A program made the translations under genes and the position numbers. A DNA stretch of 64,000 nucleotides from positions 310,001 through 374,000 of the forward strand of contig NZ_WTVH02000009.1 of NCBI RefSeq assembly GCF_012910785.2, read 5' to 3'. A model generated the notes under the pieces. The model was not told where the DNA came from. It did no database searches and saw only the letters and a program-made list of their open reading frames with translations. Below, piece by piece: positions 19,177 through 45,847 of this stretch. This DNA is from Aromatoleum buckelii. Lineage in GTDB: Bacteria > Pseudomonadota > Gammaproteobacteria > Burkholderiales > Rhodocyclaceae. The number at the start of each line of letters is the position of its first letter. Position 1 is the first letter of the stretch.

Positions 19177-19971
19177 TCAGGCTCCGGCACGGGCTCCGGC
19201 GAGCGCGTCGATCCAGCGGAGCCCGTCCGTCGTGCCCGCGGCCGGGCGGTATTCGCAACCGATCCAGCCGTCGTAGCCGAGGCGGTCGAGGTGGGCGAAC
19301 AGCCAGGCGAAATTGATTTCGCCCGTGCCGGGTTCATGGCGTCCCGGAGTGTCGGCAACCTGCATGTGCGCGATCTTCGGCAGAAAGCGCGCGATCGTGT
19401 TGCCGAGTTCGCCTTCCATGCGCTGCGCGTGGTAGATGTCGTACTGGATGAACAGGTTGTCCGAGCCGACCGCGTCGATGAGAGCGGCGGCCTGCGCGGT
19501 GCGGTTCAGATAGAAGCCGGGGATGTCCCAGGTGTTGATCGGTTCGATCAGCAGGCGGATGCTGGCCTCGGACAGTTTGTCTGCGGCGAAGCGCAGGTTG
19601 GCGACGAAAGTCTCATGCAGCGTGTTCGCGTCGACTCCGGCCGGGGCGATGCCGGCGAGGCAGTTGAGCTGCGCGCAGCCGAGCGCCTGCGCGTACTCGA
19701 TCGCGCATCCGACACCGTCCTGGAACTCGCCGACGCGGTCGGGGTGGCACGCGATGCCGCGCTCGCCGTGCTCCCAGTTCCCCGCGGGCAGGTTGTGCAG
19801 CACCTGCACGAGACCGGCGCGGTCGAGCCGCTCGGCGATCGCCTCCTTCGGCAGCGCATACGGGAACTGGAACTCGACGCCGCTGAAGCCGGCCTGCCCA
19901 GCGGCGTCGAAGCGGTCGAGGAAATCGAGTTCGTTGAACAGCATCGCGAGGTTCGCGGCAAATCTGGGCAT
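19177..19971 (-). CDS. hyi: Hydroxypyruvate isomerase
   Basis: A 264-residue TIM-barrel protein of the Hyi/AP-endonuclease-2-like family, interconverting hydroxypyruvate and tartronate semialdehyde. Metal-ligand regions are visible: LLIEPIN, QYDIYHAQRMEG, HMQVADTPGRHEPGTGEI and GCEYRPA. AAGGAAAA precedes the ATG at 19971. Neighbouring glyoxylate genes (gcl, glxR) are not present in the window, so it seems isolated. Other sugar isomerases of the same fold are the alternative. Confidence 0.87.
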   Translation of the reverse strand: MPRFAANLAMLFNELDFLDRFDAAGQAGFSGVEFQFPYALPKEAIAERLDRAGLVQVLHNLPAGNWEHGERGIACHPDRVGEFQDGVGCAIEYAQALGCAQLNCLAGIAPAGVDANTLHETFVANLRFAADKLSEASIRLLIEPINTWDIPGFYLNRTAQAAALIDAVGSDNLFIQYDIYHAQRMEGELGNTIARFLPKIAHMQVADTPGRHEPGTGEINFAWLFAHLDRLGYDGWIGCEYRPAAGTTDGLRWIDALAGARAGA

Positions 19972-39525: not shown

Positions 39526-39638
39526 CACTTGTTCTCCTTCGCATCGTGGGTCGGGACCGTTTCTTATATTTAGACGACAAATCGGAGGCTGACCGGTCGG
39601 AGTTGATGGGGCCGGAGCGTGCACCTGCAGAGACAAGA

Positions 39639-40917
39639 GGGCGCCTCGAAAAACCTCGACTCGCCCACCCTTGGTAAAATTACAGCGTCCTCAATCTCGC
39701 CACAGCCGACATCGATGAAACCGCGCAGCGCCATCAAGACCGACCTGTTTGCCTTTGATGCCCACTGCAAGAAGATCGACACGCTGGGTGACCCGCTGGT
39801 CGAGATCGAATCGCATATCGATTTTCCCGCGCTGGCGGCCGAGGTCGATATGATTGCGCCGCGACTCGTGAGTGCGCAGGGCGGGCGCCCGCCATACCCG
39901 ACCGAGACGATGGTGCGCATCCTGGTGTTGAAGCGTCTGTACAACCTGTCCGATGAGCAGATGGAGTACCAGTTGCTCGACCGCATGAGCTACAAGCGCT
40001 TCTGCGGACTGGCGAATGCGACGAACGTTCCGGATCGCACCACGGTGTGGACCTTCGAGAACCGGATTGGTGAAGCGGGGGCGAAGGCCTTGTTCGACGG
40101 GGTCTCGACGCAGCTGCTCAAGAAGGGGTTCATCGCGCGCGGCGGTCAGATCATCGACGCGACGCTGGTGCCGGCGCCCAAGCAGCACAACCGCCGCGGC
40201 GAGAAGGAACTGATCGAGCAAGGCGCAATGCCCGCCTCGTGGCGCCCGGCGAAGCGGCGCCAGAAGGATACTGAGGCGACCTGGACCAGGAAGCACGGCA
40301 AGAGCTACTTCGGCTACAAGCTGTCGATCAACATCGACAAGAAGTACAAGATCATCCGCCGAATCGAGACCGATACTGCCAGCACGCACGACAGCCAGCA
40401 CTTTGACAACGTCTTCGACACGCGCAACACGAGCCGCGATGTCTATGCCGATCGGGGCTACCCGTCCGAGCAGCGTGAAGCCAGGCTCAAGGAGAACGGC
40501 TTTCGCAACCAGATCCAGCGGAAGGGCAAGCGCAACAAGCCGCTGTCCGAGTGCCAGCAGCGACGCAACAAACGCATCGCCAAGACGCGTGCGCGGGTCG
40601 AGCACGTGTTCGGGGCCATCGAGCAGATGGGCGGCAAGCTGCTGCGCACCATCGGTCAGGCGCGGGCGAACTTTGCGATGACGATGATGGCTGCCTGCTA
40701 CAACCTGAAGCGGCTGGTCTATTTCAGGAAGGCCGGAATCGAGGCCTTCTGACGCCCGAAATGGGCCGCATCGCCGATGTCCGAGGCGATTCGAGGCAAA
40801 AACTGAGCGACACCGCGGGAAGAAGCGGTGATTTGCCGAAGGAACTGAACCGAATTCGGTCGCGGTCATCGTGTCGCACCGGGGTTCATTGAAAACCTCG
40901 GGTTATTCGAGGTGCCC
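39639..40917. mobile_element. Complete IS5-family insertion sequence with 4-bp target duplication
   Basis: The element is 1279 bp. Left end GGGCGCCTCGAAAAACC and the reverse complement of the right end GGGCACCTCGAATAACC match at 15 of 17 positions. AAGA flanks both sides (39635-39638 and 40918-40921). It carries one intact transposase gene, so it may still be active. Confidence 0.9.
39715..40752 (+). CDS. IS5-family transposase
   Basis: A 345-residue DDE transposase. The three acidic positions fit IIDATLVPAP, the YADRGYPS block and RARVEHVFGAIEQMGGKLLR (the Y-2-R-3-E-like signature). The N-terminal DUF772 region (YPTETMVRILVLKRLYNLSDEQMEYQLLDRMSYKRFCGL) is complete. No frameshift or internal stop is present. 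It moves the surrounding 1279-bp element by cut-and-paste or copy-type transposition. Confidence 0.94.
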   Translation: MKPRSAIKTDLFAFDAHCKKIDTLGDPLVEIESHIDFPALAAEVDMIAPRLVSAQGGRPPYPTETMVRILVLKRLYNLSDEQMEYQLLDRMSYKRFCGLANATNVPDRTTVWTFENRIGEAGAKALFDGVSTQLLKKGFIARGGQIIDATLVPAPKQHNRRGEKELIEQGAMPASWRPAKRRQKDTEATWTRKHGKSYFGYKLSINIDKKYKIIRRIETDTASTHDSQHFDNVFDTRNTSRDVYADRGYPSEQREARLKENGFRNQIQRKGKRNKPLSECQQRRNKRIAKTRARVEHVFGAIEQMGGKLLRTIGQARANFAMTMMAACYNLKRLVYFRKAGIEAF

Positions 40918-41013: not shown

Positions 41014-41847
41014 TCAGATGGCGGAGTGCAGATGTCCTGCAACCAACGCGAACAGTTCGTTTCGGTGATGTATTCCGAGGCGCTCGAACGCCCGGTCACG
41101 GTAGGTTTTCACGGTCGCCGCAGACAATTGCAAGTCGGCTGCGATGCCCTCATGAGTCCACCCTTTGAGCATGCGTTCGCATACCTCTCGCTCGCGCCGG
41201 GTAAGAGCATTCAGCTGAAAATGATCTGTACTGGCCTTTCCACAGAGCGACAGGTGCCGGTTGACCGAAGCGAGGAGCGGGCGTCCGAACTTCCGGATGG
41301 CGTCGATTTCATCGTCGGAAAACGCCTGCTGTCCTTCGTTGCGATAGAAATTGATCGACGTCAGTCCGGATTCGTCGTGTGCGGAAACGATCGACAGCCG
41401 CTCGCGGAGCCCATGCCGAGAGTAGATCGCCTCGCGGTGCCGTGCCGAAAATTCCGTCGCATGCCAGTGCAGAAGGGCAGCGTCAGCCTCGCGCAGATGC
41501 TCTTTGGCCAAACAGAACGTTTCATCCCTTCGGTACAGCGACGCGCGGTAGACACGCCAGGATTCCCGGGTGCCGTCCGACACACCGAAACTCCCGGAGG
41601 CGTGCAGCGTCGGGGGCTGGTCGTCAAAGAGGCGATAGACAGACCACCAACAAAGAGGCATCCACCGATTGAGCTGCGCCAGTGCCTCCTTGCCGAACGT
41701 CGCGTCCCCGATCGAACCGATAACACCCACGAGCGCTTCCTGCGCCCCGCTTTCGTCGGTGCGGCAACTGGAAGCCACTGATTTCTGAAGCGAGATCAAT
41801 TGCATAAGGGAAGGGCCCGCGAAACGTGTCCCCATCGCAGGGGACAT
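41014..41847 (-). CDS. LuxR-family transcription regulator
   Basis: A 277-residue regulator. The first ~200 residues form an unassigned sensor region (WMPLCWWSVYRLF, FSARHREAIYSRHGLRERLSIV). The C-terminus is a LuxR helix-turn-helix (LTRREREVCERMLKGWTHEGIAADLQLSAATVKTYRDRAFERLGI). The ATG at 41847 has AGAGG upstream, but it lies in a TGTCCCC/GGGGACA inverted repeat. ATGs at 41835 and 41805 are alternatives. It is divergent from the solute-binding-protein operon and most likely controls it. Confidence 0.82.
   Translation of the reverse strand: MSPAMGTRFAGPSLMQLISLQKSVASSCRTDESGAQEALVGVIGSIGDATFGKEALAQLNRWMPLCWWSVYRLFDDQPPTLHASGSFGVSDGTRESWRVYRASLYRRDETFCLAKEHLREADAALLHWHATEFSARHREAIYSRHGLRERLSIVSAHDESGLTSINFYRNEGQQAFSDDEIDAIRKFGRPLLASVNRHLSLCGKASTDHFQLNALTRREREVCERMLKGWTHEGIAADLQLSAATVKTYRDRAFERLGIHHRNELFALVAGHLHSAI
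41827..41846. promoter_or_regulatory. Inverted repeat at the luxR start
   Basis: TGTCCCC (41827-41833) and GGGGACA (41840-41846) are perfect 7-bp arms around a 6-nt spacer, overlapping the first codons of the LuxR gene. It could be an autoregulatory operator or an mRNA hairpin that hides the start. Confidence 0.4.
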
Positions 41848-41880
41848 ACAAACCTCTGTGCTCGACCTAGTCTTGCCCTG

Positions 41881-41942
41881 TGAGACCGCTTCATGCCGTA
41901 ACTGCGGCATGGTCGGCGACTGCGCCGACGAATGCGGTCTCA
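41881..41942. promoter_or_regulatory. Nested inverted repeats (possible three-way RNA junction or multi-site operator)
   Basis: An outer 9-bp perfect pair TGAGACCGC (41881-41889) / GCGGTCTCA (41934-41942) encloses two perfect 7-bp hairpins: CATGCCG-TAACTG-CGGCATG (41892-41911) and GTCGGCG-ACTG-CGCCGAC (41912-41929). The block sits exactly in the middle of the 128-bp gap, 33 nt from each start codon. Either strand could fold into a three-way junction; as DNA, the 20-bp and 18-bp palindromes could be operator sites for the LuxR regulator. Confidence 0.6.
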
Positions 41943-41975
41943 TGACTGCCATTCCGATAATAGTGGGAGACAAGG

Positions 41976-43154
41976 ATGAAGAAAACAGTTCCAAGCTGGG
42001 CCGTTGTTGCTACGGCCGTCACCGTTCTGGGTCTATCGCTCGCCGGTTCAGCGGCAGCTCAGATCAAAGTCGGGATCACATTGTCGACGACGGGGCCGGC
42101 AGCGTCCCTCGGCATTCCGGAGAAAAATACGGTAACGCTGTTCCCGAAGGAAATTGCCGGACAGCAAGTGGAGTACATCGTACTGGACGATGCGTCCGAC
42201 CCGACAACGGCGAGCAAGAATGTGCGGCGGTTCGTCGATGAGGGCAAGGTCGATGTGATTATCGGTTCGACGATTTCCCCGAACTCGCTCGCGATGATCG
42301 ACGCGGCGGCCGACACAGGAACGCCGATGATCAGCATCGCCGGCGCCTCGCGAATCGTCGAACCCATGGATGCCAAGCGCAAGTGGGTATTCAAGACGCC
42401 GCAGCACGATTCCCTGATGGCCGAGGGGATCATCGAGCATTTCACGGGCGCAGGGGGCAAGGCATTGGCCGTGATTGCCCAGTCGGACGCTTATGGCGAG
42501 GGGTGGCTGGCTGAATTGCAGAAGTTCGCGGCCGCGCGGGACGTGAAAATCGTCGCGCTTGAACGGTACAACCGTGCCGACACGAGCGTCACGGCCCAGG
42601 CGTTGAAGGTGATGTCGGCCAAGCCGGACGCCGTGGCTGTCGTCGGCGCGGGCACACCCGCTGCACTTCCGCAAAAGACCTTGCGTGAGCGTGGCTACAG
42701 CGGGTCCATCTACCAGACCCATGGCGTTGCCAACAACGACTTTCTGCGTGTCGGCGGCAAGGATGTCGAAGGCACGATTCTCCCCGCCGGACCGGTGCTC
42801 GTTGCAGCGCAACTCCCCGTGTCGGAGATCAAGACCGTGGCGATGGACTATGTGCAGCGATACGAGGAGGCCTTCGGCAAGGACACCGTAACCACTTTCG
42901 GTGCCCATGCGTGGGATGCGATGTTGCTGCTGCGGAATGCAGTTCCTGGCGCGCTGGCGAAGGCCGCGCCCGGTACGCCCGAGTTTCGGACTGCGCTCCG
43001 CGATGCGCTGGAAGGCACCAAGGACCTGACCGTTTCGCACGGCATCATGACGATGACTCCTGACGATCACAATGGCATGGACGCCCGGTCGCGCGTGATG
43101 GTGACGATCGAGAAGGGCCGGTGGGCCCTCATTCCCGAAAGCAAGGCGCAGTAA
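41976..43154 (+). CDS. Branched-chain amino acid-type ABC transporter solute-binding protein
   Basis: A 392-residue periplasmic protein with a Sec signal (VVATAVTVLGLSLAGSAAA, cleavage before QIKVG). The mature sequence is a LivK-like type I binding fold (KVGITLSTTGPAASLG, DDASDPTTASKNVRRFV, VDVIIGSTISPNSLA). Members near acyl-CoA genes often bind aromatic or other carboxylic acids rather than amino acids. No permease or ATPase genes are next to it. GGGAGACAAGG precedes the ATG. It starts a three-gene operon. Confidence 0.9.
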   Translation: MKKTVPSWAVVATAVTVLGLSLAGSAAAQIKVGITLSTTGPAASLGIPEKNTVTLFPKEIAGQQVEYIVLDDASDPTTASKNVRRFVDEGKVDVIIGSTISPNSLAMIDAAADTGTPMISIAGASRIVEPMDAKRKWVFKTPQHDSLMAEGIIEHFTGAGGKALAVIAQSDAYGEGWLAELQKFAAARDVKIVALERYNRADTSVTAQALKVMSAKPDAVAVVGAGTPAALPQKTLRERGYSGSIYQTHGVANNDFLRVGGKDVEGTILPAGPVLVAAQLPVSEIKTVAMDYVQRYEEAFGKDTVTTFGAHAWDAMLLLRNAVPGALAKAAPGTPEFRTALRDALEGTKDLTVSHGIMTMTPDDHNGMDARSRVMVTIEKGRWALIPESKAQ

Positions 43155-43156
43155 GC

Positions 43157-44986
43157 ATGAGGGCGTTCCACATTTCAACGGCGCGCGACGTCGAGCGCAT
43201 CGCCGCCGAACCGTATGAGCATTTCATGCGTCACGGCAGCGTATTCGAGGCTCTGGCGGACTCGGCGAAGCAGCATTCGGACCGCAACGCGCTGACCTTC
43301 ATCAGCGTCCCGGATCCCGAAGTGCCGGCCCGCAGATGGACCTATGCGGAACTCGTGACAGAGATCAGGCGGACCGCGAACCTCTTCCACACGCTCGCCG
43401 CAGGGGAGGAGCCGCGCATCGCGATGCTGCTTCCACCCATTCCGGAGGCGTACTTCGCGTTATGGGGAGGCGAGACGGCCGGCGTGGTGTGTCCGATCAA
43501 CTACCTGCTGAATGCCGAACACATCGGCGAGCTGATCCGTGCGGCGCAAGCGAACATCCTCGTGACGCTCGGGCCCAACCCCGACCTCGACATCTGGTCG
43601 CGCGTGCCGCGATTGCTTGCGGAGTGCCCGGGTTTGCGCCAGGTGCTGGCGGTGGGGGGAGGACCGGGCGCCGTCGATCTCGCCCACGAAGTCGCCTCGA
43701 TGCCGGGCAATGCGCTCATGTTCGAGCGTCAGGTCGGGTCGACAACGCTTGCGGCCCTGTTTCATACCGGTGGCACCACCGGCGCCCCGAAGCTTGCCCA
43801 GCACACCCATGGCAACCAGCTTCATGCGGCTTGGGGCGCGGCGCAGATGTATGCCATGACCGAGCGTGACGTCATGCTGAACGGCTTCCCGTTGTTCCAT
43901 GTCGCCGGAGCGTTCGTATACGGCCTGTCAACGCTGCTGTCCGGCGGCGAAGTCGTGCTGCCCACGCTGCTCGGCATGCGCAACACCGGCTTCGTCGAGC
44001 GCTACTGGACCTTTGTCGAGCGCCACCGCGTCAGTTTGCTCGCGGCGGTTCCGACGGTCATCGCGTCGCTCATGAACACGGATCCGGGCGCGGCTAGCCT
44101 GGACAGCGTCCGTGCACTGCTCACGGGCGGGTCGCCGCTGCCGACCGAACTCGCCACGGCTTTCGAGCGACGCTTCGGCCTACCGGTCAGGAACATTCTC
44201 GGCATGACCGAGTGCGCTGGCGTTATCAGCATCGAGCCGTTTCATGCGCCGCGTACGCCCGGATCCTGCGGCTTGCCTTTGCCCTTCACCGAAGTCCGGG
44301 CGGTGGCCGACGACGGGCGAGCCTGCGTTGCAGACGAAACGGGCATTCTTCGCGTGCGGGGACCGAACGTCGGCCCCGGCTACACCGATGCGCGGCGTAA
44401 CACGGGCACCTTCACCGAAGACGGCTGGCTGATTACCGGCGATATCGGTCATGTCGATGCCGAAGGGCGCGTCTTCGTCACGGGCCGAGCCAAGGATGTG
44501 ATCATCCGCAGCAGCCACAACATCGACCCGTGCGTGATCGAGGATGCGTTGTTGAGGCACCCCGACGTCCTGATGGCCGCAGCGGTCGGCGAACCTGACG
44601 AATATGCGGGGGAAATGCCGGTGGCTTTCGTGTCACTCAAGCCCGGGGCAAAGGTCGACGCCGCGGCGCTGGCCGCTTTCATCGAACAGCACATACCCGA
44701 GCGGCCGGCTTTTCCGCGGCGCATCGACATCATCCCCGCCATCCCGGTCACCGCAATCGGCAAGGTGTACAAGCCGGCGCTGCGCGCGCTGGCGACCGAA
44801 CGGGTAATCCAGGATCGGCTGGCCGATGCAGGACTCGGCGGCAAGGTCGAGGCGATGGCCGTGGAAACCCCGTCGGGGCCCGCAATACGATTCGTGATTG
44901 CGGACAAGGCGTCGCGGCCCGAGCTCGAAGCGCGCGTACGCGAGCTCCTGCGGCCCTACGCAGTTCCTTTTGATTTCCAGGATTAG
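43157..44986 (+). CDS. AMP-forming acyl-CoA synthetase
   Basis: A 609-residue member of the adenylate-forming superfamily that activates a carboxylic acid to its CoA thioester. The P-loop-like motif LFHTGGTTGAPKLAQHTH, the A5-type motif GMTECAG, the GWLITGDIGHVD block and the C-terminal lysine in VTAIGKVYKPAL are present. The ATG lies 2 bp after the previous stop. Substrate unknown; the context suggests the ligand of the upstream binding protein. The C-terminal ~70 residues extend past the usual end of the family. Confidence 0.9.
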   Translation: MRAFHISTARDVERIAAEPYEHFMRHGSVFEALADSAKQHSDRNALTFISVPDPEVPARRWTYAELVTEIRRTANLFHTLAAGEEPRIAMLLPPIPEAYFALWGGETAGVVCPINYLLNAEHIGELIRAAQANILVTLGPNPDLDIWSRVPRLLAECPGLRQVLAVGGGPGAVDLAHEVASMPGNALMFERQVGSTTLAALFHTGGTTGAPKLAQHTHGNQLHAAWGAAQMYAMTERDVMLNGFPLFHVAGAFVYGLSTLLSGGEVVLPTLLGMRNTGFVERYWTFVERHRVSLLAAVPTVIASLMNTDPGAASLDSVRALLTGGSPLPTELATAFERRFGLPVRNILGMTECAGVISIEPFHAPRTPGSCGLPLPFTEVRAVADDGRACVADETGILRVRGPNVGPGYTDARRNTGTFTEDGWLITGDIGHVDAEGRVFVTGRAKDVIIRSSHNIDPCVIEDALLRHPDVLMAAAVGEPDEYAGEMPVAFVSLKPGAKVDAAALAAFIEQHIPERPAFPRRIDIIPAIPVTAIGKVYKPALRALATERVIQDRLADAGLGGKVEAMAVETPSGPAIRFVIADKASRPELEARVRELLRPYAVPFDFQD

Positions 44987-45037
44987 CGCACAGGTCGCGA
45001 TGGATACGCCTGTGCCTCCAAACAAGTGGATGGCCAA

Positions 45038-45847
45038 ATGACTCTTCCGATCACGTTCCAGTGCCACGGCGCGATTGCCACGATCACCTTGAACGCGCCG
45101 CAAACCCGTAACGCGCTCACGCCCGAGATGCTCTGTCGCCTGTGTGATGCAGTGAAGGCATTCGCGAGCGATCCTGCGCTGCGTGTAGCAATCATCACCG
45201 GTAGCGGCGACCGCGCTTTTTGTGCCGGAGGCGACTTGGGACGGACGATCCCGCTTTTGAGCGGAGATCGCACTCCCGAGGACGAATGGGACCATCGGCT
45301 GCTATCGGATCCCGAGATCCTTGCGGCGTCGGGCTTGCGCGAATATCCACTGCATAAACCGGTGATCTCCGCAATCAATGGCGCATGCATGGCAGCGGGG
45401 TTCGAGCTGGTGCTCGGGACGGATTTGCGCATCGCCGCCGAACACGCAACCTTTGCGCTGCCCGAAGTAAAGCGGGCGGTGATCCCGTTTGCGGGATCGA
45501 TGGTCCGTTTGCCGCGGCAGGTATCGTACTGCCATGCGATGGAGATCATGCTCACGGGCGACGCGCTCACGGCCGACGAGGCATATCGCATCGGGCTGGT
45601 GAATCGAGTCGTGCCTGCGTCGCAGGTCATGCCAGAAGCGCTTGCGCTGGCCGAGCGAATCGCGAAAAACGGGCCTCTCGCAGTGCAGGCCGTCAAGCGC
45701 ACGGTGGTCGAGTCCAGCGGGCTGCCGCTCAGCGAGGGGTATCGCCTCGAGGACGAGAGCAAGCGAAGCGTGTTGTCGAGCGAAGATGCCCGTGAAGGCC
45801 CGCGCGCTTTCCTGGAAAAACGCGAACCGCATTTTCACGGACGTTGA
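45038..45847 (+). CDS. Enoyl-CoA hydratase/isomerase family protein
   Basis: A 269-residue crotonase-fold enzyme. The oxyanion-hole segment AFCAGGDLG and the glutamates of GFELVLG and ALPEVKRAV are at the positions of the two catalytic glutamates of true hydratases. A GTG at 45026 is an alternative start. It follows the acyl-CoA synthetase gene by 51 bp. It probably hydrates an unsaturated acyl-CoA made from the same substrate. It could in principle serve 3-methylglutaconyl-CoA in the leucine pathway, but it is far from those genes. Confidence 0.9.
   Translation: MTLPITFQCHGAIATITLNAPQTRNALTPEMLCRLCDAVKAFASDPALRVAIITGSGDRAFCAGGDLGRTIPLLSGDRTPEDEWDHRLLSDPEILAASGLREYPLHKPVISAINGACMAAGFELVLGTDLRIAAEHATFALPEVKRAVIPFAGSMVRLPRQVSYCHAMEIMLTGDALTADEAYRIGLVNRVVPASQVMPEALALAERIAKNGPLAVQAVKRTVVESSGLPLSEGYRLEDESKRSVLSSEDAREGPRAFLEKREPHFHGR

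Follow-up and report, generated by a model that had tools for sequence, protein, structure and literature searches.

Gene neighbourhood and the start of luxR

The window, that is, the whole 64,000-nucleotide stretch of Aromatoleum buckelii DNA that was analysed, carries a 62-nt block of nested inverted repeats (41881-41942) between two divergent genes. On the minus strand lies luxR (41014-41805), which encodes a LuxR-type regulator with a GerE domain. On the plus strand, the gene of a periplasmic binding protein (41976-43154; PF13458, E 1.4e-47) is followed by an acyl-CoA synthetase gene (43154-44986; NF005714, 647.8 bits with a cut-off of 632) and by an enoyl-CoA hydratase family gene (open reading frame 45026-45847; PF00378, E 7.3e-59 for 45038-45847). 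The ribosome-binding sequence of the binding-protein gene, GGGAG, was recognised from the sequence at 41965-41969 on the plus strand and is mostly paired in a predicted weak hairpin. Near the 3' side of luxR, a 377-aa open reading frame (39619-40752) presumably encodes an IS5-type transposase.

The start of luxR was placed at 41805 (MQLI...), a methionine which was invariant in the seven aligned sequences, the window's included. The first-pass annotation had used an in-frame ATG at 41847. There is no ATG at this position in two close relatives, the genomes G007 and G013, both of which have one extra base between 41805 and 41847 relative to the window, and the LuxR proteins are similar only from residue 13-14 of the longer form onward. 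The G run upstream of luxR (41806-41847) is one base shorter in the window genome than in both close relatives. The missing base together with the ATG at 41847 thus produces a false in-frame N-terminal extension of luxR. With the start at 41805, luxR is separated from the block by 75 nt, and the ATG of the binding-protein gene at 41976 by 33 nt; the earlier distance of 33 nt to both start codons therefore holds on the side of the binding-protein gene and not on that of luxR.

The AlphaFold model of LuxR had a mean pLDDT of 81. Its best matches were LuxR-type receptors, TraR, QscR and SdiA among them, with query-length TM-scores of 0.33-0.54 and large whole-chain rmsd values, and the TM-score with the ligand-binding domain of VqsR was 0.71 by target length. 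At E ≤ 1e-15, luxR was detected in 3 of the 17 genomes of the genus (the window's, G007 and G013). The same three of 17, called the trio below, contained intergenic DNA matching over the whole length, with identities to the window of 94% (G007) and 88% (G013). The binding protein has three paralogs in the same genome (G000:C5:557281, G000:C4:752758 and G000:C2:126953) with identities of 62, 51 and 49%, respectively, and at least two matches to it at E ≤ 1e-100 were present in all 17 genomes of the genus.

Structure and rarity of the folded block

The three perfect stems of 9, 7 and 7 bp described in the first-pass annotation were confirmed at 41881-41889/41934-41942 (outer arms), 41892-41898/41905-41911 (hairpin 1) and 41912-41918/41923-41929 (hairpin 2), the arms of the two hairpins reading CATGCCG/CGGCATG and GTCGGCG/CGCCGAC, respectively. 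The two inner hairpins abut at 41911/41912 with no gap, and both loops, TAACTG and ACTG, end in ACTG, as had been described. The pentamer ACTGC was seen by eye three times, at 41901-41905 and 41919-41923 (both loop ends) and past the stem at 41944-41948, possibly by chance.

The predicted plus-strand RNA fold of 41881-41942 was the proposed three-way junction, with -40.9 kcal/mol, a z-score of -7.41 and none of 200 shuffles as stable; the z-score of the minus-strand fold was -6.41. The outer stem is lengthened to 10 bp (41880-41889/41934-41943) by a G.U pair between G41880 and U41943, and the resulting 64-nt version (41880-41943) had -42.3 kcal/mol and a z-score of -7.1.

A search for nested perfect stems with stricter limits (outer stem at least 7 bp, inner stems at least 6 bp) returned nothing but the block in the window; the 15 control sequences, which were second-order Markov sequences of 64 kb each, together yielded a single weaker case. 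With looser limits, applied to 864 kb (the window and a further 800 kb of its genome), the block had 23 perfect base pairs and the runner-up 19. In the same DNA, 62 of the 107,672 plus-strand windows of 64 nt, taken with a step of 8, reached -42 kcal/mol, so the raw stability of the block is by itself unexceptional. The outer arm pair, with the arms 20-60 nt apart, occurred a single time in the 4.16 Mb genome. The block is thus a real and unusual fold.

A probable operator and -10 element upstream of the block

A palindrome TGTCC-N10-GGACA of lux-box length is located at 41827-41846, outside the block, and is the probable operator of LuxR. It was studied in 15 luxR loci, consisting of the trio and 12 others (40 to 73% identity); L021 and L022, apparent duplicates of L017 and L018, were left out. 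The homologue searches behind this set considered the best 6 candidates per genome in samples of the family and the order (395 and 399 genomes, respectively), and further homologues are possible. With at most one mismatch of 10, the palindrome was present upstream of luxR in 10 of the 15 loci (the trio, L018, L020, L024, L025, L026, L027 and L028), which make up eight lineages when the trio is counted once. A clear site was absent in the remaining five: L019 had a longer overlapping palindrome with 2 mismatches, the site of L030 had 3 mismatches, with TACGCT 21 nt further on, and L023, L029 and L031 showed no clear palindrome upstream of luxR. By eye, the downstream gene resembled that of a related binding protein in L018/L022, L019, L020 and L026.

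Exactly 21 nt past the palindrome, a YASNCT hexamer was found in all eight lineages (TAGTCT, TAGCCT, CAGACT, TAGCCT, TAGTCT, TAGACT, TAGCCT and TACCCT), while none of the other gaps between 0 and 79 had it in more than one of the eight. As YASNCT was derived from the same loci, it is the comparison with the other gaps that serves as the test and not the raw match. In the window the hexamer is TAGTCT at 41868-41873 on the plus strand, a probable -10 element. The 4.16 Mb genome contained the combined pattern TGTCN12GACAN21YANNCT at a single place, on the strand reading toward the binding-protein gene. The operator palindrome alone was uninformative, since it occurred at 4 places in the genome compared with 3 for a control pattern. 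No exact match of the operator was found in viral contigs.

A consensus scan of 41700-42100 revealed no intrinsic terminator and no standard sigma-70 promoter; the latter is expected of an activator-dependent promoter which has no -35 element. The predicted transcription start, the 7th base after the -10 element, is G41880, and a purine occupies this position in 6 of the 8 lineages. The distance from the operator centre to this start is 43.5 nt. PMC3376562 describes the lux box as a 20-bp repeat centred at -42.5. The site at 41827-41846 is likewise an inverted repeat of 20 bp, with its centre at -43.5 from the predicted start; it precedes the probable -10 element and lies beside a LuxR-type gene, together with which it is conserved, although its sequence differs, being TGTCC-N10-GGACA. 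Together, 41827-41846 and 41868-41873 resemble a lux box combined with a -10 element of the activator-dependent type.

A LuxR operator within 41881-41942 was rejected. The first-pass annotation had proposed that the block could be a compact operator for LuxR and had pointed to the lux-box length of a 20-bp palindrome in it. However, the palindrome which accompanies the luxR orthologs at a constant place in the promoter is that at 41827-41846, and it is unchanged across the trio, whereas the 20-bp palindrome of the block has changed within the trio.

The block as the predicted 5' end of the mRNA

The predicted start near G41880 coincides with the foot of the outer stem, and the block therefore most likely makes up the first 64 nt of the binding-protein mRNA (41880-41943) and is not the LuxR operator. 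In a leader starting at 41880, the predicted unpaired probabilities of nucleotides +1 to +3 were 0.19, 0.05 and 0.00, respectively. With the start at 41879, the unpaired probability of the first nucleotide was 0.71; according to work on ompA, protection could be weakened by a few unpaired nucleotides at the 5' terminus. In longer transcripts, the nine outer pairs formed with mean probabilities of 0.994 (start at 41880) and 0.996 (start at 41879). The ribosome-binding sequence and the ATG of the binding-protein gene were predicted to be paired even with the block folded. An upstream mini-ORF in the leader, considered by eye, was rejected as its frame is not kept among the three species.

Conservation of the fold

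For the first 64 nt, the z-score was -7.1 in the window, compared with -3.8 and -2.9 for the two relatives. No such fold was obtained in the seven other lineages with the same promoter, in which the z-scores ranged from -1.9 to 0.6. The first-pass annotation had named homologous intergenic regions that keep neither the pairing nor the palindromes as evidence against its proposal. Such regions, as judged by folding, are those of the seven distant lineages; in G007 and G013 the loss is partial, the outer stem being largely kept and the inner stems damaged.

The 5' arm of the outer stem (41880-41889) had no differences in its 10 positions in either relative. The 3' arm (41934-41943) differed at 1 of 10 positions in G007, which broke one pair, and at none of 10 in G013, where one base is inserted at its end. 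In hairpin 1 (41892-41911), which has 8 pairs when U41899.G41904 is counted, one pair was broken in G007 and two were broken in G013. Hairpin 2 (41912-41929) was intact in G007 and had lost 2 of its 7 pairs in G013. Accordingly, 23 and 21 of the 25 pairs are formed in G007 and G013, respectively, and the perfect form exists in the window genome only.

None of the nine block substitutions of G013 fell in the outer arms (P 0.026), and with G007 and G013 pooled the arms received 1 of 14 (P 0.031). In G007 alone, with 1 of 5 substitutions in the arms (P 0.50), no sparing was detectable. The interior of the block was the fastest-changing stretch of the aligned region, with 9 of 44 positions substituted in G013 compared with 10 of 176 elsewhere (P 0.0045). 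The sequence after the block was identical in G007 (0 of 32 positions differing) and differed at 4 of 32 positions in G013.

No pair was changed on both sides among the 25 pairs of the three sequences, a comparison of low power since only these three sequences carry the fold. Six of the 75 pair cells were broken, and the resulting paired share of 92.0% was reached by 164 of 500 shuffles. When the same substitutions were placed at random, folds as stable were obtained in 0.41 (G007) and 0.089 (G013) of the trials; this test leans toward decay because the window sequence from which it starts was chosen for its perfection. According to these comparisons, the promoter appears old and the junction young, and the junction may or may not have a function.

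Search for further copies and for known RNA families

A covariance model, R1, was built from the three trio sequences and was used to score the best 150 of about 1,470-2,010 first-look candidates per genome in the 17 genomes. At the three orthologous places the model reached 102, 98 and 85 bits, and no other candidate scored exceeded 31 bits. Weaker matches at E ≤ 1 occurred at least once in each of the 17 genomes. All six of the weaker places that were inspected lay inside open frames that read by eye like ordinary proteins, and the weak matches were therefore taken as chance G+C-rich structure. At 13 luxR homologue loci, R1 gave no match below E 0.08 and none in the leader; in the same run on the window, the block's own minus strand scored E 0.03 and 19871-19914 scored E 0.036. 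The block as a repeated element was rejected: the outer arms occur once in the genome and, among the candidates scored, R1 is strong only at the three orthologous copies.

At the gathering threshold, no Rfam family matched in the window. At E ≤ 10, the only match within 41500-42300 was a 13-nt match to RsmY at 41733-41745 on the minus strand (E 6.3), outside the block, so a known RNA family was rejected as well. The block resembles the riboswitches and structured leaders of Rfam in its stable multi-branch leader fold and differs from them in matching no family. The plasmid collection contained no match to 41820-42120, and none of the papers listed by the literature search dealt with the locus.

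Discussion

The folded block probably forms the structured 5' terminus of an mRNA under activator control. The full reading, namely a 5'-terminal leader structure of the mRNA of the binding-protein, acyl-CoA synthetase and enoyl-CoA hydratase operon with a LuxR-driven start at about G41880 and mRNA protection as the likeliest effect, is put forward tentatively, at a little under an even chance. According to this proposal, the LuxR-type regulator would bind in the -35 region, at the palindrome 41827-41846, and bring RNA polymerase to the -10 element TAGTCT. Transcription would then start at about G41880, and the first nucleotides of the RNA would immediately be locked in the 10-bp outer stem. 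The three genes would be co-transcribed, and the pairing of the terminus could shield it from RppH and RNase E and thereby prolong the life of the mRNA.

The review PMC3997798 states that RppH and RNase E depend on single-stranded 5' ends, which accounts for the stabilising effect of 5' secondary structure. Given this requirement, shielding the binding-protein mRNA at its 5' terminus would be the most economical function and the most likely role of the structure.

The 5' stabilising stem-loops of bacterial mRNAs such as ompA and papA offer a comparison. The block is similar to them in that the paired RNA end is predicted at or within 1-2 nt of the start and in that a long leader precedes a separate ribosome-binding site. 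It differs in being a three-way junction instead of a single stem-loop, in being restricted to three species and in having a predicted start.

Almost as likely as a function is an incidental origin, in which free spacer between the transcription start and the ribosome-binding sequence became a set of near-perfect nested palindromes with no selected role, possibly with the help of template switching during replication. This explanation has a substantial chance of being right, though somewhat below even. It is favoured by the fast change of the interior, the lack of compensatory changes, the non-significant mutation simulation and the restriction of the fold to the trio among the eight lineages. 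The perfect form, too, is confined to one genome (of the 25 pairs, G007 has lost 2 and G013 has lost 4). Three observations speak against it: the outer arms are spared in G013 and in the pooled data, all three trio sequences fold better than their shuffles, and the foot of the stem falls on the predicted start.

Nested palindromes bound as DNA by a protein other than LuxR, with half-sites TGAGACCGC about five helical turns apart, would agree with the symmetry of the block as DNA and with the better conservation of its outer arms. Such an operator is nevertheless improbable: the LuxR-linked palindrome lies elsewhere, the outer arm pair occurs only once in the genome, the block is downstream of the predicted start, and the block model had no significant match in the 13 other luxR loci. 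Equally doubtful is a regulatory RNA of recent, lineage-specific origin, still evolving from free spacer at the 5' terminus of the transcript of the LuxR-activated operon; its folding, dependent on a ligand, a protein or temperature, would add a second layer of control to the regulator's sensing.

No sign of a riboswitch was found. The first-pass annotation had suggested a ligand-sensing leader RNA; its leader position is in agreement with a transcript predicted to begin where the outer stem begins, while the ligand-sensing part is unsupported. A riboswitch-like three-way junction controlling the operon after the transcription start would fit both the stable fold and its place in the 5' leader of a binding-protein/acyl-CoA operon. 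However, neither an Rfam match nor covariation in the three sequences was obtained, a terminator-like site is absent, and the fold is missing from the seven other lineages that share the regulator and the promoter. Moreover, the inspected weaker model matches all lay in open frames, and a LuxR-type sensor probably controls the promoter already. This possibility is therefore considered very unlikely. A translation spacer or standby element, in which a compact fold holds the upstream leader off the ribosome-binding sequence, is just as hard to credit, since this sequence and the ATG are predicted to be paired even with the block folded and other lineages manage without the fold, despite the end of the block 33 nt before the ATG and the conservation of the following sequence in G007 and, to a lesser degree, in G013.

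If the block does form the protected 5' end of the operon mRNA, it would be a neat natural case of a promoter whose architecture places the first transcribed base at the bottom of a structured leader. The side result may be more useful in practice: the conserved layout of operator and -10 element for this family of LuxR-type regulators gives binding and induction experiments a defined target.
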